64,000 nucleotides of DNA from contig JAQXQE010000006.1 of the NCBI GenBank assembly GCA_029101005.1, positions 1 through 64,000 on the forward strand, in the 5' to 3' direction. The translations under genes were made by a program, and so were the position numbers. Positions within the stretch are counted from its first letter, which is position 1. Each line of letters starts with the position of its first letter. The notes beneath the pieces were generated by a model. It made no database searches. It worked only from the letters and a program-made list of their open reading frames with translations, and was not told where the DNA came from. The stretch comes from Bacillota bacterium (GTDB lineage Bacteria > Bacillota > Clostridia > Peptostreptococcales > Anaerovoracaceae). Below, piece by piece: positions 6,609 to 41,193 of the stretch.

Positions 6609-9223
6609 TTCTGCTCGATTGCTGCCTGTGCAGCAGCGAGTCTTGCGATTGGAACTCTGAATGGTGAGCATGAAACGTAGTTCAGACCAACAGCATTGCA
6701 GAAGTGGATTGATGCTGGCTCTCCGCCGTGCTCTCCACAGATTCCGAGCTTGATATTTGGTCTTGTCTTTCTTCCATCCTCAACAGCCATCTTAACGAGC
6801 TTGCCGATTCCTGTCTGATCGAGTGACTGGAATGGATCAACCTCAAGGATACCCTTGTTTACGTACTCCTTGATGATGTTTCCTGTGTCGTCTCTTGAGA
6901 ATCCGAAGCCCATCTGTGTGAGGTCATTAGTTCCGAATGAGAAGAACTCAGCATCCTTAGCAATTGCATCAGCTGTGAGTGCTGCTCTTGGAATCTCGAT
7001 CATTGTACCTACCAGGTACTTGAGCTCCTCACCTGCCTCCTCGAAGCACTTAGCAGCTGTCTCGTCGATAACCTTCTTAACAGCCTTCAGCTCGTTGTCG
7101 ATTCCAACCAGTGGAACCATGATCTCTGGAACGATGTCGAGACCTGTCTCCTTCTTAACCTCGAGTGCAGCTGTGATGATAGCTCTTGTCTGCATCTCAG
7201 CAATCTCTGGGTATGTAACAGCAAGTCTGCAACCTCTGTGTCCGAGCATTGGGTTGAACTCGTGGAGCTCGATTGTCTTGTTAACAACCTTCTCGTATGG
7301 GATGTTGAACTGCTCTGAAAGCTGTCTCATATCCTCCTCTGTCTTAGGAAGGAACTCATGGAGAGGTGGATCAAGAAGTCTGATAGTAACTGGTCTCTCA
7401 CCCATTACCTTATAGATTCCCTTGAAGTCTTCCTTCTGGTATGGAAGGAGTCCCTCGAGTGCCTCTCTTCTCTCAGCCTCTGTATCAGCAAGGATCATTC
7501 TTCTGATCTTTGGAATTCTCTCCTCTTCGAAGAACATATGCTCTGTTCTGCAGAGACCAATTCCCTCAGCACCGAAGTCAACAGCCTGCTGAGCGTCTCT
7601 TGGATTGTCTGCATTTGTTCTTACCTTAAGTGTTCTGATCTCGTCAGCCCAGCTCATTACTGTTCCGAAGTCACCTGAGAGCTCTGGAGCCATTGTCTTG
7701 ATAGCCTCGAGGTATACATTACCGTCTGAACCGTTGAGTGAGATCTGCTGTCCCTCTGTGTACTTATTGCCAGCGATTATCAGAGTCTTGTTAGCCTCGT
7801 CAACAGTGATATCCTTACATCCAGCTACGCAGCACTTACCCATACCTCTAGCTACTACAGCAGCGTGAGAAGTCATTCCGCCTCTAGCTGTGAGGATACC
7901 CTCAGCAGCGATCATTCCAGCGAGATCCTCTGGTGATGTCTCCTCTCTTACAAGGATAACCTTGTGACCTGCCTCAACTGCTGCTGCAGCCTCCTCTGCT
8001 GAGAAGTAGATCTCTCCTGTTGCTGCTCCTGGTGAAGCTGGGAGACCCTTTGCAACTGATGTAGCCTTTGAGAGCTCATCTGCATCGAATGTTGGGTGGA
8101 GCAACTGATTAATCTGATCAGGCTCGATTCTCATGAGAGCAGTCTTCTTATCGATGAGACCCTCGTTAACGAGGTCTACTGCAACCTTTACTGCTGCAGC
8201 AGCTGTTCTCTTACCATTTCTTGTCTGGAGCATGAAGAGCTTGTTGTCCTCAACTGTGAACTCCATATCCTGCATATCCTTATAGTGATTCTCAAGAATC
8301 TCAGCAACATTCTCAAACTGAGCATATACCTCCGGGAATGCGTCCTTCATCTCTGAGATAGGCTGTCCAGTTCTGATACCAGCTACTACGTCCTCTCCCT
8401 GAGCATTTACGAGGAACTCACCGAAAATAGCATTCTCTCCTGTAGCAGGGTTTCTTGTGAATGCAACACCTGTACCTGAAGTGTCACCAGTGTTACCGAA
8501 TACCATTGACTGTACGTTAACAGCTGTTCCAAGTGATGCTGAGATGTTATTCAGCTTTCTGTAGAGGATAGCTCTCTCGTTGTTCCATGAACGGAATACA
8601 GCAGCGATAGCCTCGAGAAGCTGATCCTTAGGCTCCTGTGGGAACTCTCTTCCGAGCTCAGCCTTAACAAGTGCCTTGTAGCCTGTGATGATCTCCTTCA
8701 GATCCTCTGTAGAAAGGTCTACGTCGAACTCAGCGCCAACCTTCTTCTTCTGAGCATTGAAGACCTCATCGAACTTAGCCTTAGGAATCTCCATTACTAC
8801 ATCACCGAACATCTGAATGAATCTTCTGTAACTGTCGTATGCGAATCTCTCATTGCCAGTCTTCTTCGCGAGTCCATCTACAGAAACATCGTTAAGACCA
8901 AGGTTCAGAATTGTGTCCATCATACCAGGCATTGATACAGGAGCTCCTGATCTTACTGATACGAGCAGTGGGTTGTCCAGGCTTCCGAACTTCTTACCCA
9001 TTACCTCCTCGAGCTCAGCAAGGTGCTCGAATGCCTCATCAATAATCTCATCGCTGAGCTGGTTGCCGTCCTCGATGTACTTCTTACATGCATCTGTGCT
9101 GATTGTGAATCCGAATGGAACAGGAAGTCCAATCTTAGTCATCTCTGCAAGGTTTGCACCCTTACCACCGAGAAGGTTTCTCATGTCCTTTGAACCTTCG
9201 TTGAAAGAATATACGTATTTCAT
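6605..9223 (-). CDS. ppdK: Pyruvate, phosphate dikinase
   Basis: Interconverts pyruvate, ATP and phosphate with phosphoenolpyruvate, AMP and pyrophosphate, a central step of carbon metabolism in many anaerobes. The ATP-grasp domain is at the N-terminus (GGKGANLAEM; VSVRSGAPVSMPGMMDTILN). The swivelling phosphohistidine domain has GGMTSHAAVVARGMGKCCVAG, and the PEP-binding barrel ends with CGEHGGEPAS. About 872 residues is normal for the family. I start at the second ATG (9223): AAGGAG sits 9 bases before it and directly abuts the first ATG at 9232. It follows glyQS closely, as in other Clostridia, and is probably co-transcribed. Confidence 0.97.
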   Translation of the reverse strand: MKYVYSFNEGSKDMRNLLGGKGANLAEMTKIGLPVPFGFTISTDACKKYIEDGNQLSDEIIDEAFEHLAELEEVMGKKFGSLDNPLLVSVRSGAPVSMPGMMDTILNLGLNDVSVDGLAKKTGNERFAYDSYRRFIQMFGDVVMEIPKAKFDEVFNAQKKKVGAEFDVDLSTEDLKEIITGYKALVKAELGREFPQEPKDQLLEAIAAVFRSWNNERAILYRKLNNISASLGTAVNVQSMVFGNTGDTSGTGVAFTRNPATGENAIFGEFLVNAQGEDVVAGIRTGQPISEMKDAFPEVYAQFENVAEILENHYKDMQDMEFTVEDNKLFMLQTRNGKRTAAAAVKVAVDLVNEGLIDKKTALMRIEPDQINQLLHPTFDADELSKATSVAKGLPASPGAATGEIYFSAEEAAAAVEAGHKVILVREETSPEDLAGMIAAEGILTARGGMTSHAAVVARGMGKCCVAGCKDITVDEANKTLIIAGNKYTEGQQISLNGSDGNVYLEAIKTMAPELSGDFGTVMSWADEIRTLKVRTNADNPRDAQQAVDFGAEGIGLCRTEHMFFEEERIPKIRRMILADTEAERREALEGLLPYQKEDFKGIYKVMGERPVTIRLLDPPLHEFLPKTEEDMRQLSEQFNIPYEKVVNKTIELHEFNPMLGHRGCRLAVTYPEIAEMQTRAIITAALEVKKETGLDIVPEIMVPLVGIDNELKAVKKVIDETAAKCFEEAGEELKYLVGTMIEIPRAALTADAIAKDAEFFSFGTNDLTQMGFGFSRDDTGNIIKEYVNKGILEVDPFQSLDQTGIGKLVKMAVEDGRKTRPNIKLGICGEHGGEPASIHFCNAVGLNYVSCSPFRVPIARLAAAQAAIEQK

Positions 9224-9244
9224 TTCGATCATCTCCTTAGTGAA

Positions 9245-10666
9245 TTAGAAAACAAGTTTCTCTTCAATATATGCTCTAACCTCTGACAGTGGGAGTCTTA
9301 CCTGCTCCATTGTATCTCTGTCACGGATAGTCACCGACTGTGTCTCTTCTGTCTCGAAGTCTACGCAAATGCTGAATGGTGTTCCAATCTCATCCTCTCT
9401 TCTGTATCTCTTACCGATTGAGCCGGCAGCATCGTAGTCCACCATAAAGTACTTTGAGAGCTCCTCGTAGATTGGAAGAGCAACATCCTCGAGTTTCTTT
9501 GAGAGAGGAAGAATTGCCACCTTGTAAGGTGCGAGTGCAGGATGGAGTCTCAGAACTGTTCTTACATCCTCCTTGCCGTTACCATCTGTGAGAACCTCCT
9601 CATCATATGCATCTGTAAGGATGGCGAGGAGCAGACGCTCAACACCAACAGAAGGCTCGATTACGTATGGTACATATCTCTCATTAGTCTCTGGGTCGAG
9701 GTATGTGAGATCCTGCTTTGAGTGGTTCTGGTGTGCAGAAAGATCGAAGTCTGTTCTTGATGCAATACCCCAGAGCTCACCCCATCCGAATGGGAACTGG
9801 AACTCGATATCTGTTGTAGCATTACTGTAGTGTGAGAGTTCCTCAGGATCGTGATCTCTGAGTCTTATGCTATCCTCCTTAATGCCGATGGCCTTAAGGA
9901 AGTTTGCACAGTAGTCCTTCCAGTATGCGAACCAGTCAAGCTCTGTTCCTGGCTTGCAGAAGAACTCAAGCTCCATCTGCTCGAACTCTCTTGTTCTGAA
10001 GATGAAGTTACCAGGTGTGATCTCATTACGGAATGACTTACCAACCTGTGCGATTCCGAATGGAACCTTCTTTCTTGATGTTCTCTGTACACTCTTGAAG
10101 TTTACGAAGATACCCTGTGCTGTCTCAGGACGAAGATAGATCTCTGCTGCAGAGTCCTCTGTAACACCCTGGAAAGTCTTGAACATCAGATTGAACTTTC
10201 TGATGCTTGTGTAATCTGTCTTGCCACACTCTGGGCATGGAATTGCATTCTCAGCGATGTAAGCCTCGAGCTTTGCGTTGTCCCAGCCATCACACTGAAT
10301 CTCCTCACCCTTAGCCTTTACAAAGTTCTCGATGAGCTGGTCAGCTCTGAATCTTGACTTGCAGCTCTTGCAGTCGATGAGAGGATCTGAGAATCCTCCA
10401 ACGTGACCTGATGCAACCCATGTCTCTGGGTTCATAAGGATGGCGGCGTCAAGTCCTACATTGTATCTTGATTCCTGTACAAACTTGCGTCTCCACGCCT
10501 TCTTGATATTGTCCTTAAGTTCTACTCCAAGAGGACCATAATCCCATGTGTTAGCAAGACCACCGTAGATCTCTGAACCAGGGAAAATGTAACCTCTGTT
10601 CTTGGCAAGAGCGGTCAGCTTATCCATTGTTGCTACGCGCTCTCCGCAGTTATTTGCCTTAGCCAT
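9245..10666 (-). CDS. glyQS: Glycyl-tRNA synthetase, single-chain type
   Basis: Charges tRNA-Gly. The 473-residue length and class II motifs identify the alpha2 form rather than the two-subunit bacterial form: [21 protein letters not shown] (motif 2 region) and [10 protein letters not shown] (motif 3). A CPECG pair belongs to the zinc-binding insertion. AGGAG lies 5 bases before the ATG. It lies between a DUF4342-like gene and ppdK; the hairpin at 10730-10770 may separate it from the upstream gene. I see no T-box in the short leader. Confidence 0.96.
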
Positions 10667-22424: not shown

Positions 22425-23615
22425 TTAGATGCAGTGCTGTCTTACACCGCTCTCAAGCTCATCCCAGAATGGTGAGAGCTTTCTGTAGTGCTCTACTACC
22501 TCGTGTACGCACTTGATGATGTAATCAACTTCTTCCTCTGTATTCTCCTCATTGAGGCTGAATCTTAAGCTTCCATGAGCTGCCTCAACAGGAACGCCCA
22601 TTCCAAGCAGAACGTGGCTTGGGTCGAGTGACTCGCTTGTACATGCTGATCCTGATGAGCAGCAGATACCTCTGAGATCGAGTGAGAGTAGAAGTGACTC
22701 ACCCTCAACTCCCTCGAATGAGTAGTTAACATTTCCAGGAAGTCTCTTATATCTGTCACCGTTAAGCTTTGAGTGTGGGATGTCAGCGAGTCCCTCAATC
22801 AGTCTGTCTCTGAGTGCTGTAACCATAGCTGTGTTCTCCTCAAGGTGATCACAACCCTCCTTGAGCGCAGCAGCGAATGCAGCATTACCAGGAACATTGA
22901 TTGTGCCGGCTCTCTTGCCTCTCTCCTGTGCTCCACCCTCGATAACATTAACGAGCTTGATTCCGTTTCTTGCATAGAGAACGCCTACACCCTTAGGACC
23001 GTGGAACTTGTGTCCTGACATTGAAAGCATATCGATGTTCATAGCCTGTACATCGATTGGAAGGTGTGCAGCAGCCTGAACAGCATCTGTGTGGAAGAGA
23101 ACTTTCTTCTCCTTGCAGATAGCGCCGATCTCAGGAATTGGCTGAATTGCGCCCATCTCGTTGTTAGCGAACATGATTGATACGAGAGCAGTATCCTCTC
23201 TGATAGCATCCTCAACTTTCTTAACATCTACGATTCCGTTAGCTTCCGGAGCGAGATATGTTACTTCAAATCCCTCACCCTCGAGCTTTCTCATTGTATG
23301 AAGAATAGCGTGGTGCTCGATATTGAGTGTGATAAGGTGTTTCTTGCCCTTCTCCTTCTGTCCTCTTGCTGCGCTGAGCAGAGCCTGGTTATCAGCCTCA
23401 CTTCCACCTGAAGTGAAGTAGATCTCATTTGGCTTAGCCGCGTTGATGCACTCAGCTACGATTGCTCTTGCCTCATCGAGCTTCTCCTGTGTTCTCTGTC
23501 CATCTGTGTGCAGGCTGTTAGGATTTCCATTGAAATTCTTAAGACAGTCAAGCATTGTGTTCATTGCGGTCTCACTCATGTATGTAGTTGCCGCATTGTC
23601 AGCGTATACTCTCAT
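22425..23615 (-). CDS. iscS: Cysteine desulfurase
   Basis: PLP enzyme that takes sulfur from cysteine for Fe-S and thio-cofactor synthesis. The PLP lysine lies in SMSGHKFHGPKGVG and the catalytic cysteine loop is CCSSGSACTSES. The length of 396 and the start MRVYADNAATT are typical of the NifS/IscS group. The RBS GGAGG precedes ATG. The dyad at 23686-23706 lies about 75 bases upstream and probably controls it through the adjacent Rrf2 regulator. Confidence 0.97.
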   Translation of the reverse strand: MRVYADNAATTYMSETAMNTMLDCLKNFNGNPNSLHTDGQRTQEKLDEARAIVAECINAAKPNEIYFTSGGSEADNQALLSAARGQKEKGKKHLITLNIEHHAILHTMRKLEGEGFEVTYLAPEANGIVDVKKVEDAIREDTALVSIMFANNEMGAIQPIPEIGAICKEKKVLFHTDAVQAAAHLPIDVQAMNIDMLSMSGHKFHGPKGVGVLYARNGIKLVNVIEGGAQERGKRAGTINVPGNAAFAAALKEGCDHLEENTAMVTALRDRLIEGLADIPHSKLNGDRYKRLPGNVNYSFEGVEGESLLLSLDLRGICCSSGSACTSESLDPSHVLLGMGVPVEAAHGSLRFSLNEENTEEEVDYIIKCVHEVVEHYRKLSPFWDELESGVRQHCI

Positions 23616-23685
23616 CTTCGTCCTCCAAATATATTTCTACCCAATAATGGTATTATTTGTCATTTCAATAAACTTATCACTTATT

Positions 23686-23706
23686 TCCTACTCAGTCAAT
23701 AGGAAT
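23686..23706 (-). promoter_or_regulatory. Candidate Rrf2 operator upstream of iscS
   Basis: TTCCTA-N9-TAGGAA, three bases past the rrf2 stop. On the minus strand the spacer contains TTGACT, a plausible -35 for iscS. The same TCCTA-N9-TAGGA layout occurs at 25554-25572 before the MATE-rrf2 operon, with the shared core ATTCCTATTG. Confidence 0.55.
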
Positions 23707-23708
23707 TG

Positions 23709-24158
23709 TCAGTTGCTACACTCTGAGCACCAGTCTCCAAGCATCTTCTTTCGGTCACCCTTCATAATATCCTCGAGTGTAACCTTCGAAAGATACTGCT
23801 CAATTGCTCTGTCAAGCCCAACCCAGAGCGGAAGTGTCATACAGCTTGCCGCCTTATCGCAGTTGATGTCATTGTTCTTGATGCATTCAACTGGAGCGAG
23901 ACTACCCTCTGTCAGAGACAGAAGTTCACTCATAAGTATTTCCTTAGTCTCACGTGCAAGGCGGTATCCACCATTCTTGCCTCTGAGACTCTGAAGCATC
24001 TTACCCTTGTTGAGAATAGAGACAATGCTCTCGAGATATTTCATAGAGAGATTCTCCCTCTCCGCAATATCAGCCAAAGAAACGTAGCCGTCTCCTTGGT
24101 TCTGTGCGAGATCAATAAGCACAATGAGGGCATATCTACCCTTGCTTGATACCATCAT
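23709..24158 (-). CDS. Rrf2/IscR-type transcriptional regulator
   Basis: A 149-residue regulator starting MMVSSKGRYALIVLIDLA, the classic Rrf2 winged-helix N-terminus, with a recognition region SLADIAERENLSMKYLESIV and wing RGKNGGYRLAR. Three cysteines (ECIKNNDINCDKAASC, C-x7-C-x5-C) fit a cluster-binding site as in IscR. I start at ATG 24158, preceded by AAAGGAG; a longer frame upstream runs through the MATE 3' end and has no RBS. It overlaps the MATE gene by 23 bases and precedes iscS-iscU, so it likely represses Fe-S or cysteine genes. Confidence 0.92.
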   Translation of the reverse strand: MMVSSKGRYALIVLIDLAQNQGDGYVSLADIAERENLSMKYLESIVSILNKGKMLQSLRGKNGGYRLARETKEILMSELLSLTEGSLAPVECIKNNDINCDKAASCMTLPLWVGLDRAIEQYLSKVTLEDIMKGDRKKMLGDWCSECSN

Positions 24159-33599: not shown

Positions 33600-34487
33600 C
33601 TATGCCTCCATCTGCTCGAGAATTGCGATTACGCTGGACTTGATATCCATCTCAGGTCTGAAGCCAGTATCAGCCTCGAGCAAGTTGTAATCAACCGATG
33701 TGTTGCCAACAGCATCATCATCGTTATATGTCACCTCAGGGAAATCCTTGCCTCTCTCAGCAAAAACCTCCTGAATTGCCTCAATCATCTCCTTGAGAGT
33801 GTAGCCCTTGCCTATTCCTGTGTTATAGACAGGCTTCCAGTTCTTTGCGTCGAGCTTGATAAGTCCGACGATTGATGATACTGCATCCTCAATATCGAGA
33901 AATCCAAAGATCTGTCTATTCAGATTCACAGAGATTGGCTCCATATCGAGAGCACGTCTTACGAATCTGTTGACAATCCTCTGATTGAAAGCAGGTCCAA
34001 TCAGACTGGCCATTCTTACGTTGGTATATGCCATATTGCATGAAGCACATACAGACTCAATCATAAGCTCAGTCGAATACTTGCCGACAGCATAAGGAGT
34101 ATCAAGACTGAGTGCGTCACTCTCCTTCGCAGCAGCCTCTCTCTTTCCGTCATATACGCTCTGAGATGAGATATTGATAACAGCTCTTGCACCGCAAGCT
34201 CTGCATGCATCGAAGAGTCTACTAATATACAACAGACCATCAGCAACTGCCGAACCTGTCGAATTGCGTGGATATGCGCAGTTAACTACTACGCTACCCT
34301 CAAGAAGCTCAGTAGCGAACTCCCCAAACACAGCATCCTTATGATAATACATCACACCATCTCTCAGCTCACCTGCAATATCTGCACTTGACGATAGTGC
34401 TATGAGTTCGATACCTGTGTCGTTTCTTAATCGCTTAATAAGTGCACTTCCAAGGAATCCTGAAGCGCCCGTAACAACTATTCTCAT
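33600..34487 (-). CDS. NAD-dependent epimerase/dehydratase
   Basis: A 295-residue extended SDR. The NAD-binding GASGFLGSALIKRL is at the start, and the catalytic Tyr-x3-Lys is YAVGK. It likely epimerises, dehydrates or reduces a nucleotide- or lipid-linked sugar for the operon product. It is not the large membrane-bound PglF dehydratase, so the 4,6-dehydration expected before the operon's aminotransferase must be done by this enzyme or elsewhere. GGAGG lies 5 bases before ATG. Confidence 0.9.
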   Translation of the reverse strand: MRIVVTGASGFLGSALIKRLRNDTGIELIALSSSADIAGELRDGVMYYHKDAVFGEFATELLEGSVVVNCAYPRNSTGSAVADGLLYISRLFDACRACGARAVINISSQSVYDGKREAAAKESDALSLDTPYAVGKYSTELMIESVCASCNMAYTNVRMASLIGPAFNQRIVNRFVRRALDMEPISVNLNRQIFGFLDIEDAVSSIVGLIKLDAKNWKPVYNTGIGKGYTLKEMIEAIQEVFAERGKDFPEVTYNDDDAVGNTSVDYNLLEADTGFRPEMDIKSSVIAILEQMEA

Positions 34488-34499
34488 ATCTTCCTCCGC

Positions 34500-35798
34500 C
34501 TATGCATATATGCAGTCAGCATAATCAGACTCTTCGATACCAGGAAGCTGAAGTTCCTTGCCCTCTGTCGAGATAATCCTGATTGTGCTGTTGATGTCTG
34601 CAATAAGCTGCTTCATCTCATCGATGCTACCCGCCTTACCGAGTACTCTTACAGTAATCTGAGCAAGGAGACCTTTCATCTTCTCAGTAATCTCATCACC
34701 CGCAGGATGAGCCACATAGACATCGATAACCTGTGGCATTGCACGAACCTCTTCGATTCCGCGAAGTTCAGCAATCTTGCCAGGCTTAGAGAGCATGGAT
34801 ACGTTGAAAGAATAACCGCCACCAAGGTACGGATCAATCTTCGATGCGAGATCAGGCTCGCCGTAATCTCCGCTTACAGCAAATCTAATCAGCATATCGA
34901 GCGGATCGAATCCGCAACTCTCCTTGATATTCTTATACTCAAGCGAACCTGTAAGTCTGTAGCCGATGTCGTATACGTATGGTACATCGTTCTCGATCTT
35001 GCACTGCATGAAGAGCATTCCGTTCTCAATTCCGATTGAGCGGAACATCTCCTTCATCCTAGGAGCTGTCTCCTCAAGGAACTTAGGAAGAAGCGCCGCT
35101 GGATAAGTGTATCCAACAGGAAGTGGAATAACTCCACCCTGATTCTCTTTGACGTGTCTGTTGCCCATCAGCATCACATGATACTCGCCCTTATCAAAGA
35201 TCCAGAAGATAGTCGCCTCTGCTCCATCCATATACTTCTCAACAAGTACAGTCTTAGTCTGCGAAGCACCCTTGGCGAATTCAACAGCCTCCGCGAGTTC
35301 AGCCGAATCGTGGCAGATTGTGATTCCTCTTGCGCCACTTGAATCGCTAGGCTTAACGAGCACTGGGAATTCCACAGACTCGCATGAAGCCTCAATATCG
35401 TCAACATTAATTTGATACTCAGGAATTGTCGGAACATCGAAATCTCTCATAAGAGCCTTATATCTGCTCTTGTCTATGAGAACCTCAAACTGCTCCCTTG
35501 TTCCGTAAGCAGGAAGATTGCATCTCTCGCACATCTCCGCATAGTACGGAAGGACTGAGTCTGTGAAGCCCGTGATAACTCCATCGAAATTATTCTCTTT
35601 GATGAGCTTCTCCATTACATCGATGTCACTGGTGCTCTCGAAATACGCCTCATCTGCCATCTGCTTCGCCGGACTTCTGTCGAGCTCATACCAGTCAGTA
35701 ACACCAACTGTGATGCCCATATCCTGAGCATGCTTAACTATCTCACAGGAGATTCTCTGTCCTCCGAGAATAAGTAAACGCTTACCCTTGAGATTCAT
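34500..35798 (-). CDS. ATP-grasp domain ligase
   Basis: A 432-residue ATP-grasp protein with a Rossmann-like N-terminus (MNLKGKRLLILGGQRISC) and an ATP-grasp core (FPVLVKPSDSSGARGITICHDSAEL, VEKYMDGAEATIFWIFD, MFMQCKIENDVPYVYDIGYRLTG cut). It would join a carboxylate to an amine through an acyl-phosphate, for example to decorate a sugar with an amino acid. I start at ATG 35798 with GGAG 7 bases upstream; an in-frame longer start (35843) lies inside the preceding gene. Substrates unknown. Confidence 0.9.
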   Translation of the reverse strand: MNLKGKRLLILGGQRISCEIVKHAQDMGITVGVTDWYELDRSPAKQMADEAYFESTSDIDVMEKLIKENNFDGVITGFTDSVLPYYAEMCERCNLPAYGTREQFEVLIDKSRYKALMRDFDVPTIPEYQINVDDIEASCESVEFPVLVKPSDSSGARGITICHDSAELAEAVEFAKGASQTKTVLVEKYMDGAEATIFWIFDKGEYHVMLMGNRHVKENQGGVIPLPVGYTYPAALLPKFLEETAPRMKEMFRSIGIENGMLFMQCKIENDVPYVYDIGYRLTGSLEYKNIKESCGFDPLDMLIRFAVSGDYGEPDLASKIDPYLGGGYSFNVSMLSKPGKIAELRGIEEVRAMPQVIDVYVAHPAGDEITEKMKGLLAQITVRVLGKAGSIDEMKQLIADINSTIRIISTEGKELQLPGIEESDYADCIYA

Positions 35799-35812
35799 AT
35801 CTTCTCTCCAAT

Positions 35813-37549
35813 CTATCTGTTCTGATACCACTGCTTGATGCAAGCAACAATGGCATCCATATCACCCTCGCTATATCTCTGATCGCAGACAAGTGAGAGC
35901 TCGTTCTTTCTGACACCTGCATTTGCGCCCATAACCTCAGGCCAGTGCACAGGACAGTACATTCCGGCCTCGATGAGAGCCTTACGCAGTGAGTTTCTGT
36001 CCTCTTCCGCAAGGAACACAGGCAGGAAAAGCGGTGTGCCTTTCTCGAGGTTCATCTCTGGGAGCTCAAGTACTTCGCTGTTGAGCTCTTCCAGTCCCTC
36101 GCAGAGTCTGCGCGCATTGTCTCTTCTCTGCTTCTTGACAGCCTCGATGTCTGTTCCCTCAATAATTCCATATGAAGTGCTGTCAATCTCGAGCAGTCTG
36201 TCAACGTGAATCAGATCATTATCGAACTTGGACTGTGTTGCAAGGAAGTTCTCCTTGTCGCTGATCTCGCCCTTGAGATAAGCGTACTTCTCCTTCATTC
36301 CGCTGATCTTGTCCTCTACAGCATTGTCACTGCACTGATCAGGCTTAACTGCAAGCTTGCCGGACTTCTTTGCTACCCAGCCACCCGCTGGAACAGCGAA
36401 CCATTTTCTAAGGCTGGCAACGAGATAATCACTCTCAGCACAAGCAGGCTCATCGGCAAGAAGTGAATGTGTGATGTCCTCGATTACGATTGCACCAGCT
36501 GCATGTGCCTTGCTGATAGCCTCTGCAGCCGCATCAGTTCCGAGTCCGAAGTAATCCATAACGAGCACAGCATCACCTGCACCAAGAGCAGGAAGCTCAT
36601 ATTTGAATCTTCCGTCCTTGCGAGATACTTCGTAGAACTTTACCTTAACTCCGTTATCAATGAATGACTGCATCATTGATACACAGCAGTATGAAGGCAT
36701 ATAGATGCAGTTCATTGAACCATTGCTTAGAATATCTCTTACAGCCATCTCAATAGCGGCTCTACCTGAGAATGTAAATGCAGAATCCTCTGCAGCTGGA
36801 AGCCAGTTGACCCCCTTACCTGTAGCCTCAGGCATATTGTCATCGAGCCAGAAGAAGCTTCCGATTTCTGAATAAGTCATTCCGTTCATTTTGTCTGTCA
36901 CTCTTCCCTCTTCCTTGAGCACTGTATAAGGACCAAAATCCTTAACCTTGTGTGTACCTCTAACTGTGATATCTGCAGACTTCAGAACCTTGAAGAAGGT
37001 ATTGATGATAATCTTGCAGTCATTGATGAATGTGATATTGTCCACATATTCGATATCGTACTCGAAGCGCTTATCCCAGCTGAGATTGTTTCTTCCATTC
37101 ACCTGAGCAAGGCCTGTGAGACCAGGTCTTACAGACTGTCTTCTTCTCTGCTCATCTGAGTAGTGAGGCAGATAGTACATCGAAAGCGGACGAGGACCAA
37201 CAATACTCATATCTCCAACGATGATATTCCAGAGCTCAAGCAGCTCATCGATACTGCTCTTTCGCAGGAACTTGCCGAACTTTGTAAGTCTCTTGCTGTC
37301 CGGGAGGAGCATACCGTTCTCGTCAGTCTCATTAGTCATACTGCGATACTTGTACAGATAGAAAATCTTCTCATCCTTACCAGGACGTGCTTGCTTGAAT
37401 ACTACAGGGCTTCCAAGCTTGAATCTTGCAATAATCGCTACGATTGCAAGCAGCGGGCTGAGTATGATGAATGCAAATCCCGCAAGAATGATATCCAGAG
37501 CTCGCTTAACAAAAAGCTCATATATACCGCGTCTTCTCTTAGTTTCCAT
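35813..37549 (-). CDS. Fusion: phosphoglycosyl transferase + DegT-type PLP enzyme
   Basis: A 578-residue two-domain protein. Residues 1-205 are a monotopic PglC-type phosphoglycosyl transferase: a reentrant hydrophobic helix (18-42), KYRSMTNETDENG, the catalytic Asp101-Glu102, VGDMSIVGPRPL and RPGLTGLAQVNGR. It would move a phospho-sugar to undecaprenyl phosphate. Residues about 225-578 have the DegT/DnrJ/EryC1 aminotransferase fold: SGRAAIEMAVRDIL, MDYFG, IEDITHSL and the putative PLP lysine Lys382 in ASLRKWF. PglC and PglE are normally separate proteins. A second, full-length DegT enzyme is encoded two kilobases upstream in the same operon. Confidence 0.88.
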   Translation of the reverse strand: METKRRRGIYELFVKRALDIILAGFAFIILSPLLAIVAIIARFKLGSPVVFKQARPGKDEKIFYLYKYRSMTNETDENGMLLPDSKRLTKFGKFLRKSSIDELLELWNIIVGDMSIVGPRPLSMYYLPHYSDEQRRRQSVRPGLTGLAQVNGRNNLSWDKRFEYDIEYVDNITFINDCKIIINTFFKVLKSADITVRGTHKVKDFGPYTVLKEEGRVTDKMNGMTYSEIGSFFWLDDNMPEATGKGVNWLPAAEDSAFTFSGRAAIEMAVRDILSNGSMNCIYMPSYCCVSMMQSFIDNGVKVKFYEVSRKDGRFKYELPALGAGDAVLVMDYFGLGTDAAAEAISKAHAAGAIVIEDITHSLLADEPACAESDYLVASLRKWFAVPAGGWVAKKSGKLAVKPDQCSDNAVEDKISGMKEKYAYLKGEISDKENFLATQSKFDNDLIHVDRLLEIDSTSYGIIEGTDIEAVKKQRRDNARRLCEGLEELNSEVLELPEMNLEKGTPLFLPVFLAEEDRNSLRKALIEAGMYCPVHWPEVMGANAGVRKNELSLVCDQRYSEGDMDAIVACIKQWYQNR

Positions 37550-37566: not shown

Positions 37567-38139
37567 CTATTTGTCTTCTCTTGTCTTATTGAAGTCAGCC
37601 CATGCGAGCTCAGCTTCCATCTCTGTGATTCTCTGGTTGTGCTCTACGATTGGATAATTGTATCCGCCTGTTGTAGGATCAAACTTCATCTTCTCTACGA
37701 AGTCATCGAAGCTTCCAATCTTTCTTGCTGGAGAACCAACATATACACCATTCGACTCGAGGTCCTTTGTCACGATTGAGTTAGCACCGATAATGATATT
37801 TGAGCCAATCTTAACGTTGCTCATGATAGTGCAGTTATATCCGATGTATACATTGTCCATTACCTCAATGCATCCTACCTTCTCAGGGAAGAATCCCATA
37901 TCCATTCCGTTGAGGATTGCATATGACGCATCATGTGTAACGAATCTTACACCTGCTGCTACCATGATATTGTTGTGCAGCTTGATCAGCTCAGGATAGA
38001 GCGGAATAAGTCTTGGCTGGAATCTAACATTCTCACCAACCTCTGCAAAAATCTTCTTATCTCTGAGGTAGTTACCTCTTCTTCTTGAACCTCTCTGCAT
38101 TGCCAGACCTACAGTCTGAAGCATTCTCTTCTTCTCCAT
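37567..38139 (-). CDS. Hexapeptide-repeat acyltransferase
   Basis: A 190-residue left-handed beta-helix acyltransferase. Hexapeptides run from about residue 85 to 165 (GYNCTIMSNVKIGSNIIIGANSIVTKDLESNGVYVGSPARKIG, abbreviated to its ends: YNCTIMSNVKIG and SPARKIG). It would O- or N-acylate a sugar with an acyl-CoA donor. GGAAGGA precedes the ATG. It sits between the FemAB-like gene and the fusion gene, so it is likely a glycan-modifying enzyme of this operon. Confidence 0.88.
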   Translation of the reverse strand: MEKKRMLQTVGLAMQRGSRRRGNYLRDKKIFAEVGENVRFQPRLIPLYPELIKLHNNIMVAAGVRFVTHDASYAILNGMDMGFFPEKVGCIEVMDNVYIGYNCTIMSNVKIGSNIIIGANSIVTKDLESNGVYVGSPARKIGSFDDFVEKMKFDPTTGGYNYPIVEHNQRITEMEAELAWADFNKTREDK

Positions 38140-38166: not shown

Positions 38167-39147
38167 CTACTGTCTGTACGCAGGGAAGAAATCCGAATCC
38201 TTGTCGACTCCCTTTATCTCGCACAGTCTGTCATACACTTCCTTATTCCATATCTTTCTTCCAAGATAGAAGTCAAAGTCAGTATTCTGTCCGAACTTCT
38301 TCTTGAAAAGATACAAGCTGTTGTCCTCAGCTCTCGACGTTCCGCCACCGTAGTGTACGAAGTGCATTCCGTGTTCCTTCGCCCACTCTGCTGTTGCATA
38401 CTTTGTCACATAGGCAGGTGACATACTCAGATACTCAGAAAGAGTACCGGAAAGATGACACTGCACGATGTCGCCGCAGGCGAAGTATAGACCTGCCGCA
38501 ATAAGCTTGTCCTCAAAGAGGACTTTTACATAGATAACATACTTGCCGAGAGTATCCAGTATCTGCTGGAAATACTCATCGCCGAAGTAGTAATAGTCTG
38601 AAGCACTGTCTCGATCCATTGTTGAGTAGTACACAGTCTTGAACTCATCTATCTCGCTCGGATTCTCGATTACCTCATAAGTCACACCTGCCTTGAGAGC
38701 TTTCTTGATGTACTTCTTGGTGCTCTTGCTGAACTCCTCACTGATCTCGTAATCTCTGACATTTGTTCCAACAGTCTTTCTGTCCCATGTAGGATTGTAA
38801 ATGCTCTCGAAGTCTGCTGCATTGTTCAGTATCGGATGGAATCTGACAAACTCACTGACTACATTATTGTCCTTGCAGAACTTCTCCATCTCAAGTCTGA
38901 AGCTGTCTACCAGAGCCGCCTTATCGCCTGTCAGCGATGTGATTATAGGTCCGCCGTAACCATATGGTGTTATGAGATCGTAATACTTCTCGTCTGTATC
39001 AATTGGAATCTCTCTCAGCATCATATATGAAATTGCAGAGCCATGTTCATTGTCCACACTTACCGACACAGCTTTCGCATTCTCTATCTTCTCATAGAGC
39101 TTCGGATAACTCTCATCGAAATAGAAATCCGGAATATTCTGATACAT
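38167..39147 (-). CDS. FemAB/GNAT-like aminoacyl- or acyltransferase
   Basis: A 326-residue protein with tandem GNAT-type folds of the FemABX/peptidoglycan-bridge class: KFCKDNNVVSEFVRFHPILNN, KSTKKYIKKALKAGVTYEV and the C-terminal LIAAGLYFACGDIVQCHLSGT, HYGGGTS, LYLFKKKFG. The class moves aminoacyl groups from aminoacyl-tRNA, or acyl groups from CoA, to cell-surface precursors. I start at ATG 39147 with AGGAG 9 bases upstream; the longer frame overlaps the DegT gene. With the ATP-grasp protein it suggests amino-acid decoration of the glycan. Confidence 0.83.
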   Translation of the reverse strand: MYQNIPDFYFDESYPKLYEKIENAKAVSVSVDNEHGSAISYMMLREIPIDTDEKYYDLITPYGYGGPIITSLTGDKAALVDSFRLEMEKFCKDNNVVSEFVRFHPILNNAADFESIYNPTWDRKTVGTNVRDYEISEEFSKSTKKYIKKALKAGVTYEVIENPSEIDEFKTVYYSTMDRDSASDYYYFGDEYFQQILDTLGKYVIYVKVLFEDKLIAAGLYFACGDIVQCHLSGTLSEYLSMSPAYVTKYATAEWAKEHGMHFVHYGGGTSRAEDNSLYLFKKKFGQNTDFDFYLGRKIWNKEVYDRLCEIKGVDKDSDFFPAYRQ

Positions 39148-39169
39148 TGTCAAATCTCCTGTTGTTATT

Positions 39170-40408
39170 CTACTCAAAGCACGCTCTGATTACTTCGATA
39201 ATCTTGTCCTGCTGCTCTGCTGTAAGCTTGTTGTCACTTGGCAGGCAGAGTCCTCTATGGAAAATATCCTCTCCCGCTCTTACGCTTCCGTCCTTAGCCA
39301 CGAATGGGTTCATTCTGAAGATAGGCTGCATGTGCATTGGCTTCCAGATTGGTCTTCCCTCTGCATTGATTGAAGCGATTACGTCGAGAATCTCTTGTGG
39401 ACATGACTTACCCTCCTCTGGAATGTAAGCAACATCCTGGTCGCTTCTTACCTGCTTGCACATTGCATCTTCGTCGATGATCATACAGCTCAACCAGTAG
39501 TTAGGTTCGCAGTCAGCTGGGATAGGATTCATCTTAACAGGAAGTCCCTTGAGGCCCTCCTCATATCTCTCATAGATTGCCTTCTTCTGTGCGATGTGCT
39601 CTCCGAGGTGCGGGAACTGTCCTCTAACTACTCCTGCAATTACATTGCTCATTCTGTAGTTATATCCAACCTCCTCGTGCTGATACCATGAAGCACTCTC
39701 TCTTGACTGTGTGCTCCACTTCTTTACCTTCTCATAGTCAGCCTGGCAGTTTGTCAGGAACATTCCTCCGGAACTTCCTGTGATAATCTTGTTACCGTTG
39801 AAGCTGATGCAGCCGTAGTCTCCAAAGATACCTGTCTGCACACCCTTATATGTTGTTCCAAGAGATTCAGCAGCGTCCTCTACAATCAGTGCACCGTGCT
39901 TATCAGCAATTGCCTTGATCTCATCGATCTTAGCAGGTGTTCCATAGAGGTGAGCTACTACGATGAGCTTAACCTCTGGATAGATTTCAAAAGCCTTCTC
40001 AAGAGCCTCTGGGCACATATTCCATGTGTCATACTCTGAGTCTACGAATACTGGGATACCACCCTCGTATACTACAGGATTAACTGTAGCTGAGAATGTC
40101 ATATCTGAGCAGAATACGAGTTTGCCTTCGAGTGCACCCTTGCCAGCAGCTGGCTTGCCGTAAAGCTTCTCTCCAGCGAGCTTCATTGCGAGGTGAAGTG
40201 CAGCTGTTCCACTTGCAAGACCTACTGAATACTTGCAGCCGACGAGCTCACAGGCAGTCTTCTCAACCTCATTGATATTAGCTCCAAGAGTTGACATCCA
40301 GTTAGTGTCATATGCCTCCTGCATGTACTTAAGCTCCTCGCCGTGCATTGTTGGTGAGCTGAGGTAGAGTTTCTTATCAAATGCTTTAATATCAGTTCCC
40401 TTAAACAT
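39170..40408 (-). CDS. DegT/DnrJ/EryC1 sugar aminotransferase
   Basis: A 412-residue PLP enzyme that would aminate a keto-sugar nucleotide (PglE-like, UDP-4-keto to UDP-4-amino sugar). Landmarks are LSSPTMHGEELKYMQEA at the N-terminus, GLASGTAALHLAMK, LYGTPAKIDEI, EDAAESLGTTY and the PLP lysine in SFNGNKIITGSSGG. Length and motifs are complete, unlike the DegT half of the 35813-37549 fusion. AAAGGAG precedes ATG. It is the second gene of the operon. Confidence 0.93.
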   Translation of the reverse strand: MFKGTDIKAFDKKLYLSSPTMHGEELKYMQEAYDTNWMSTLGANINEVEKTACELVGCKYSVGLASGTAALHLAMKLAGEKLYGKPAAGKGALEGKLVFCSDMTFSATVNPVVYEGGIPVFVDSEYDTWNMCPEALEKAFEIYPEVKLIVVAHLYGTPAKIDEIKAIADKHGALIVEDAAESLGTTYKGVQTGIFGDYGCISFNGNKIITGSSGGMFLTNCQADYEKVKKWSTQSRESASWYQHEEVGYNYRMSNVIAGVVRGQFPHLGEHIAQKKAIYERYEEGLKGLPVKMNPIPADCEPNYWLSCMIIDEDAMCKQVRSDQDVAYIPEEGKSCPQEILDVIASINAEGRPIWKPMHMQPIFRMNPFVAKDGSVRAGEDIFHRGLCLPSDNKLTAEQQDKIIEVIRACFE

Positions 40409-40449: not shown

Positions 40450-41076
40450 TTATCTTACTGTTCCACTGACATCGATATGTGTCCAGTTATTCACCTTTGA
40501 ATCTCTTCCGAGAACTACGCCCGCAGATATAATGCAACCGCTTCCGATACTGCTTCCAGAGCTGACTATGGCTCTTGCGCAGATTACGGTTCCGACTCCA
40601 ATACTTGCGCTCTGCGATACCTCTGCTGATGGGTGAACAAGCTTAGGTATTGAATAGCCGAGTTCTGCAAGTCTTGCGAACCAGCGCTGTCTCGTATCCT
40701 TGTCTCCAACAGCAACTATCGCTGCCGAGTATTCAGATCTCAGTTTGCCTATATCTTCCCATCGGCCCACTGTATTCTCTACTGCCGGATTGTCATCAAG
40801 ATAATCGATTCTATCAAACATATTGAGTTCACTCGCTATCTCATTAACCTCTCGTCCGTGGCTTCCCGCACCGAGTATGAGAAGATTGATTCCCTTCGGC
40901 TCGAAATTCTCCATACGCAAAGCATCCAGAGCTTCTTCCCTTCTCGCCTTCGCTTCATCATATGTCTTGCCGTAGCAGGATGCATAGATGGCGCGGCCGG
41001 AATCGTCTCTGGATCTGATATATCTGGCTTCGTATCTGCCGTCTTTTCTCTGTCTAATATTATCCCCTGTTCTCAT
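40450..41076 (-). CDS. Fusion: integrase-type arm DNA-binding domain + truncated PglD/NeuD-like protein
   Basis: A 208-residue chimera. Residues 3-52 (NIRQRKDGRYEARYI, YGKTYDEAKARREEAL) match the AP2-like N-terminal arm-binding domain of Tn916-type tyrosine integrases. Residues 62-130 form the PglD/NeuD nucleotide-binding fold (LLILGAGSHGREVNEIA, DYLDDNPAV). Residues 148-203 are beta-helix repeats (HPSAEVSQSASIG). The expected catalytic His-Asp is Arg191-Asp192 here, and about 55 C-terminal residues of normal PglD are missing. No integrase catalytic domain follows. It is the first operon gene, 35 bases after the transcription start. I infer a DNA-binding sugar-nucleotide sensor; a damaged acetyltransferase is the alternative. 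Confidence 0.8.
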   Translation of the reverse strand: MRTGDNIRQRKDGRYEARYIRSRDDSGRAIYASCYGKTYDEAKARREEALDALRMENFEPKGINLLILGAGSHGREVNEIASELNMFDRIDYLDDNPAVENTVGRWEDIGKLRSEYSAAIVAVGDKDTRQRWFARLAELGYSIPKLVHPSAEVSQSASIGVGTVICARAIVSSGSSIGSGCIISAGVVLGRDSKVNNWTHIDVSGTVR

Positions 41077-41117
41077 GCCTTTACCTTTGCATTTGAATAG
41101 CGTTTATTTATGGTCTA

Positions 41118-41146
41118 ATAATAGTCAAAATTGTGGTAAATTTCAA
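41118..41146 (-). promoter_or_regulatory. Sigma-A promoter of the glycan operon
   Basis: TTGAAA, a 17-base spacer and TATTAT on the minus strand, 42 bases upstream of the first operon gene. Confidence 0.7.
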
Positions 41147-41169: not shown

Positions 41170-41193
41170 AACGACCACTATTCAGTGGTCGTT
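41170..41193 (-). terminator. Terminator of the second MATE gene
   Basis: AACGACCACT and AGTGGTCGTT, a 10-bp stem with a 4-base loop followed by TTGTGT on the minus strand, 10 bases after the MATE stop. It isolates the glycan operon promoter. Confidence 0.75.

Follow-up and report, generated by a model that had tools for sequence, protein, structure and literature searches.

An integrase arm fused to a truncated PglD/NeuD protein as a candidate sugar-sensing regulator in Bacillota

In the window, which is the whole 64,000-nucleotide stretch of Bacillota DNA analysed here, we found a gene that joins an integrase-type arm domain to a truncated PglD/NeuD acetyltransferase without its catalytic histidine. 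Judging from the gene, its relatives and their upstream DNA, the fusion is probably a self-regulating, nucleotide-sugar-sensing one-component transcription factor, domesticated from an integrase and controlling the operon behind its own promoter. A sugar-responsive gene switch is probable because the relatives share the protein and many of them have a matching DNA address at the promoter. The paired TGACCA(C) half-sites upstream of the fusion genes are new here, and no report of an arm-PglD fusion was found in the mainly open-access journal literature searched.

The fusion protein and its relatives

The gene (40450..41076, minus strand, ATG at 41076) encodes 208 aa and was delimited by its open reading frame and by orthologues. 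On the same strand, homology and model place an integrase arm or AP2-type DNA-binding domain at residues 1-56 (40909..41076), profile and alignment place a PglD_N nucleotide-sugar domain with G69, G71, D94, D95 and R129 kept at residues 64-136 (40669..40887), and profile, model and alignment place a truncated left-handed beta-helix at residues 145-208 (40453..40644). By alignment, the codon of Arg191 (40504..40506, minus strand) stands where the catalytic His is expected. Pfam and NCBIfam gave PglD_N and a truncated NeuD match. The AlphaFold2 model, built from an alignment of 17 members (mean pLDDT 89.4), has arm strands at residues 7-9, 15-23 and 29-36 and a helix at 39-56, giving a beta-beta-beta-alpha arm, followed by a PglD-like alpha/beta domain and short beta-helix coils. 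The profiles, the homology and the structure prediction thus uphold the architecture of the preliminary description, an arm followed by a PglD/NeuD-like Rossmann fold and a short beta-helix. It had also seen no recombinase behind the arm and, unlike in Tn916-type integrases, the catalytic domain is indeed absent by Pfam.

The arm is strongly homologous to integrase N-termini by tblastn, and the signature RxDGRxEARY is common to both. For the proposed Pfam arm profile the outcome was divided: the homology to integrases stood, but the profile matches remained below threshold, with the arm alone scoring 14.9 and 17.4 bits against curated values of 27 and 33.3 for Integrase_DNA and AP2. Searches against Pfam and PDB sequences gave only sub-threshold or chance matches, and Foldseek gave no match at E < 0.001 for the 56-residue arm. 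The arm model aligns with the Tn916 integrase arm (PDB 1bb8) and with AP2/ERF domains (1gcc) as a compatible beta-beta-beta-alpha fold at modest Z, and unrelated chains do likewise; dsRNA-binding domains are also among its structural neighbours.

The remaining part resembles the PglD/NeuD/PerB N-acetyltransferases (TIGR03570; PDB 4m99 and 4ea7 are the best Foldseek matches), which have the same Rossmann-like nucleotide-sugar domain and left-handed beta-helix, but the fusion lacks the catalytic His and the C-terminal coils and carries the added arm. TIGR03570 matched the window protein with 112.1 bits (curated 160.8) over profile positions 1-147 of 202. The Arg-Asp seen in place of the catalytic His-Asp is the commonest form of a loss found in every member: the catalytic column of 17 distinct members reads R in 11, S in 2 and K, Y, E and N in one each, and His in none. 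Ordinary NeuD controls had His-Asp in 16/16 rows (14 distinct genes, as two row pairs are the same gene; the rows came from 37 loci by taking plus-strand frames of 150-270 aa only, and the losses were unrelated to the residues). The early stop of the beta-helix was also confirmed, with 2-38 residues beyond the active-site strand in the members against 61-71 in ordinary NeuD. Without a catalytic His or the final coils, the fusion protein cannot, by its sequence, be an ordinary acetyltransferase. The PglD_N domain is present in all 17 members, in which G69, G71, D94, D95 and R129 are invariant, and H73 is found in 16. Between L121 and L122, dN/dS was 0.044 overall, 0.169 in the arm and 0.024 in the dead-enzyme part (most other pairs tested were saturated). 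This points to purifying selection, so that the dead enzyme is maintained and not decaying, at least in this pair.

A contig scan covering 84,980 species, for which two short peptide patterns served as seeds, gave 444 confirmed loci, of which we examined the best 80; the same collection scanned with the window protein alone as single query gave no match. Of these 80, 17 were full fusions (L114-L130) and 58 carried the arm alone; L131 and L132 retain a recombinase remnant, L133 and L135 are broken fusions, and L134 is the remaining locus. The fusion is therefore present beyond this strain, a point that the preliminary description had proposed to check in related genomes: the 17 further loci among the best 80 of 444 are all from Bacillota and encode 16 distinct proteins, 35-57% identical. 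L128 encodes the same protein as L127 and has a short upstream region, and was kept out of the 17-member alignment and the motif counts; L114 and L115 are contigs also met in genomes G230 and G010. In L134, positions 9001-9737 hold an ordinary NeuD gene; directly behind this gene, close to where the contig ends, the matches point to a possible arm segment.

The records of fusion carriers are labelled Mogibacterium, Lachnospiraceae, Hungatella, Eubacterium, Ruminococcus, Oscillospiraceae, Oscillibacter and Erysipelotrichia, and Kineothrix sp. MSJ-39 (L129) is the sole one of the 17 without a MAG label. Arm carriers made up 2/47 genomes in the window's genus. The fusion was detected in 3/349 genomes of the family, with a fourth genome (G095) carrying the arm alone, solely in the window's own genome in a class sample of 391, and in 1/236, 1/240 and 2/239 genomes of order samples around three relatives, centres counted. 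With few carriers per sample, yet many labelled groups, the fusion is rare but widely spread. Matches in viral contigs (5 loci) and phage records (4) were confined to the arm, and among the plasmid matches listed none covered 80% of the query at one place.

In a tree of PglD domains, made without L002 (by sight DapD-like, not NeuD), the 17 aligned fusions together with L131, L132 and L133 formed one clade (support 0.993), separate from 18 other proteins. Twelve fusions, the window's among them, branched together (support 0.974), and the others joined L131-L133 at 0.615. L131 (8185-9564) and L132 (6048-7406) each encode, in a single frame, an arm, a degenerate tyrosine recombinase and a pseudo-PglD; Pfam Phage_integrase was detected in L132 at 1.6e-7 and weakly in L131 at 0.049. 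Compared with 15 integrases, both miss the core-binding domain, and at the presumed Arg I they read GIS or GLS, where most integrases have GLR or GMR; the presumed His residues of HxxR and of the GH motif are lost, and a Tyr remains at its usual place. Considering these two possible intermediates, it is likely that an integrase gave rise to an arm with a dead recombinase and a pseudo-PglD, from which the recombinase was lost.

Half-sites upstream of the fusion genes

For the upstream DNA, 300 bp before the gene was taken in each of 19 loci (the window, L114-L127 and L129-L132; 5.7 kb in total). These regions contained 58 GACCA/TGGTC half-sites, a density of 10.2 per kb; over the rest of the same loci the density was 1.3 per kb. 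Pairs of GACCA at inverted spacings of 13-14 or 23-25 or direct spacings of 9-11, all chosen after the sequences were seen, numbered 17 in 14/19 upstream regions (5.7 kb) against 2 in 341 kb elsewhere. No such pair was detected upstream of the 58 arm-only loci, mostly of integrase length, or upstream of 222 other ORFs. Five of the 19 loci (L115, L124, L125, L127 and L132) have no pair upstream. The two pairs outside the upstream regions are both close to the 3' ends of fusion genes (L124 near 9587, L131 near 9468).

In 15 whole genomes we counted 7 occurrences of TGACCA-N4-TGACCA, 5 of which directly precede the fusion by their coordinates, against 0 for the reversed control. The loose form GACCA-N8-20-TGGTC gave fewer matches than its reversed control in 12 of these genomes, so that only tight spacings are informative. 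Among unguided tests, the 6-mer test gave TGACCA in 16/19 loci, a weak result as the best word equalled that in 18/200 shuffles, and the 7-mer test gave ATGACCA in 13/19 loci, which was equalled in 1/200 shuffles. When repeats were sought without reference to any motif, 13/20 fusion upstreams had one, against 74/234 controls; in 7 of the 20 the repeated word was TGACCA, and no control word was repeated in more than 3 loci. L126, L129 and L130 have GACCAAA instead of GACCAC, and their arms begin with GVYKR or LVYER instead of NIR, a correspondence that would fit the arm as the reader of the sites. L125 and L127 have an arm of the same type as L126 and L130, yet no pair.

The promoter predicted in the window is TTGAAA-17-TATTAT (41118..41146, minus strand; -35 at 41146, -10 ending at 41118). 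Upstream of the -35 lies the palindrome GACCACTGAATAGTGGTC (41173..41190, minus strand), which scores also as a terminator-like hairpin of the preceding gene, and a GACCA half-site (41111..41115, minus strand) lies 2 bp past the -10; there is no direct repeat at this locus. Over the loci, the sites are arranged either as a palindrome before the -35 or as 10-bp direct repeats, the latter upstream of the promoter in L126, L129 and L130. In ten loci the distances from the upstream TGGTC to the predicted -35 were 22, 31, 31, 31, 32, 40, 41, 42, 52 and 53 bp, advancing by roughly one turn of the helix (Rayleigh R 0.89, p about 1e-5; L114, with uncertain promoter, and L124, with the site inside the promoter, are omitted, and the L123 promoter and all sites used were picked by eye). 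When the test was cut to six loci, one per close group and with L114 added, p was 0.0014. The first downstream site was only weakly phased (p 0.026).

The sites seem to go with the arm and not with the truncated PglD in the few cases at hand. L135, a broken fusion outside the rule-finding set (Longibaculum muris DSM 29487, near 9001), still has a 10-bp direct repeat upstream; L133, also broken and outside that set, has no pair upstream and gives no help. Neither GACCA nor TGGTC occurs in the 400 bp upstream of three arm-less truncated PglD genes, two from Ruminococcus albus plasmids and one from Subdoligranulum variabile. On the two Ruminococcus albus 7 plasmids (L229 4759-5483, L230 3248-4010), related small proteins of about 80 aa are encoded, one on each, and on both plasmids the arm-less truncated PglD and then a sugar transferase come next. 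In G095, again outside the rule-finding set, a stand-alone arm protein of about 55 aa (contig 7, L065, about 23571-23792) is encoded just before a GalE-like gene, with the palindrome ACCAC-N17-GTGGT upstream and GACCA absent.

Proposed switch and other explanations

As in a one-component factor, a DNA-binding domain and a small-molecule domain are joined in the protein, by homology and model, and a specific operator at the promoter was predicted by computation in 14/19 upstream regions. The preliminary description had proposed the regulatory role as an inference, and the helically phased TGACCA(C) sites flanking the promoter speak for it at the level of sequence. A self-regulating, sugar-sensing factor is the simplest account, because a DNA-reading domain, a kept sugar site and a lost active site occur together with a phased operator found almost only there. 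In this switch the arm would bind the TGACCA(C) half-sites, which is the well-supported step: in one branch a palindrome upstream of the -35 together with single or 10-bp-spaced direct sites past the -10, in the other branch direct repeats upstream of the promoter. PglD/NeuD enzymes are trimers, and the truncated beta-helix may still oligomerize, so that several arms would bind groups of sites jointly, by looping or by holding RNA polymerase. The kept motifs suggest that PglD_N binds a nucleotide-activated sugar of the pathway; its occupancy would alter DNA binding, and the sugar supply would set the expression of the operon. Repression is likelier than activation, because the sites overlap the start region.

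It is unlikely, but worth weighing, that the sites serve another regulator or act as terminators, the fusion being a non-regulatory accessory of glycan assembly with the arm as scaffold. The palindromes do come after upstream genes, some with T-runs, and an arm-less truncated PglD also heads glycan operons in Ruminococcus albus, so that the PglD part may function independently. However, the half-site recurs past the -10, where a terminator is unneeded, the sites are phased with the -35 and accompany the arm in the few cases compared, and GACCA pairs are almost absent elsewhere. Binding of the arm to leader RNA, leading to attenuation or antitermination, is quite improbable: the fold has dsRNA-binding domains as neighbours and several loci have direct repeats within the leader that is predicted to be transcribed, but the upstream palindrome is outside the predicted transcript and in phase with the -35, and the arm is homologous to integrase arms that bind DNA.

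An architectural accessory that helps a partner recombinase to invert or excise the promoter, with att-like arms as the sites, would suit the integrase ancestry, the degenerate recombinase of two relatives and the related sites flanking the promoter; it is very doubtful, since the remnants lack the presumed Arg I, the HxxR His and the following His, and the arm-only loci have no such pairs upstream. It is hardly credible that the protein acts as an acetyltransferase through an unusual active site. The protein belongs to the NeuD family by profile and its gene adjoins a DegT aminotransferase gene, as the PglD gene adjoins PglE, but the catalytic His is absent in 17/17 members and the last coils are missing.

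If the self-regulating factor is the correct reading, a glycan-operon switch in Bacillota would have a named sensor and a named DNA address. UpxY and LoaP control polysaccharide operons as NusG-like antiterminators, UpxY from the operon head; a regulator is tied to a glycan operon there as here, but the domains are unrelated. The redox-sensing repressor Rex, which has a winged-helix head and senses NADH, is alike in principle, with a DNA-binding head and a Rossmann-type sensor (weak Foldseek match, E 0.003), but the head of the window protein is beta-beta-beta-alpha in the model instead of a winged helix, and we claim no membership in Rex. The ALOG regulators of plants are likewise reported to derive from the DNA-binding domain of a tyrosine recombinase (PMC3537659), but they are plant proteins with another recombinase domain and are not known to have an enzyme-derived sensor. 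The fusion would then be a bacterial counterpart of plant regulators that derive from the DNA-binding domains of mobile elements, and L131 and L132 would be possible evolutionary intermediates. We might speculate, at about even chances, on a class of bacterial factors made from two dead enzymes, in which an integrase was cut, via a dead-recombinase intermediate, to an AP2-type reader, and a pseudo-acetyltransferase reads nucleotide-sugar levels, looping its own promoter.

Genes behind the fusion

In the window the fusion gene is followed on the minus strand by genes for a DegT/DnrJ/EryC1 aminotransferase (39170..40408), a FemAB/GNAT-like protein (38167..39177), a hexapeptide acetyltransferase-like protein (37567..38139), a bacterial sugar transferase with C-terminal extension (35813..37549; Pfam Bac_transf only, E 1e-5), an ATP-grasp protein (34500..35843) and an NAD-dependent epimerase/dehydratase (33600..34487). 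The position of the fusion as first gene of a glycan operon, given in the preliminary description, holds. The long C-terminal half of the sugar transferase (35813-37549) resembles a PLP aminotransferase by eye.

DegT aminotransferases were detected downstream by Pfam in the window, L114, L123, L124, L126, L130 and L132, and sugar transferases by eye in several loci. L116, L118 and L119 precede a BCCT transporter and L120 a periplasmic-binding-protein ABC transporter; L121, and L122 alike, is followed by an intact NeuD and then, by eye, peptide transporters; L117, L125 and L127 have by eye no operon. As some members precede transporters or no operon, the downstream genes are often, not always, glycan genes. 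An intact NeuD is present in 4/19 loci (L120, L121, L122 and L124). In L115, an 81-aa protein (6778-7023) is encoded between the fusion and a by-eye UDP-sugar dehydrogenase with a broken-looking frame.
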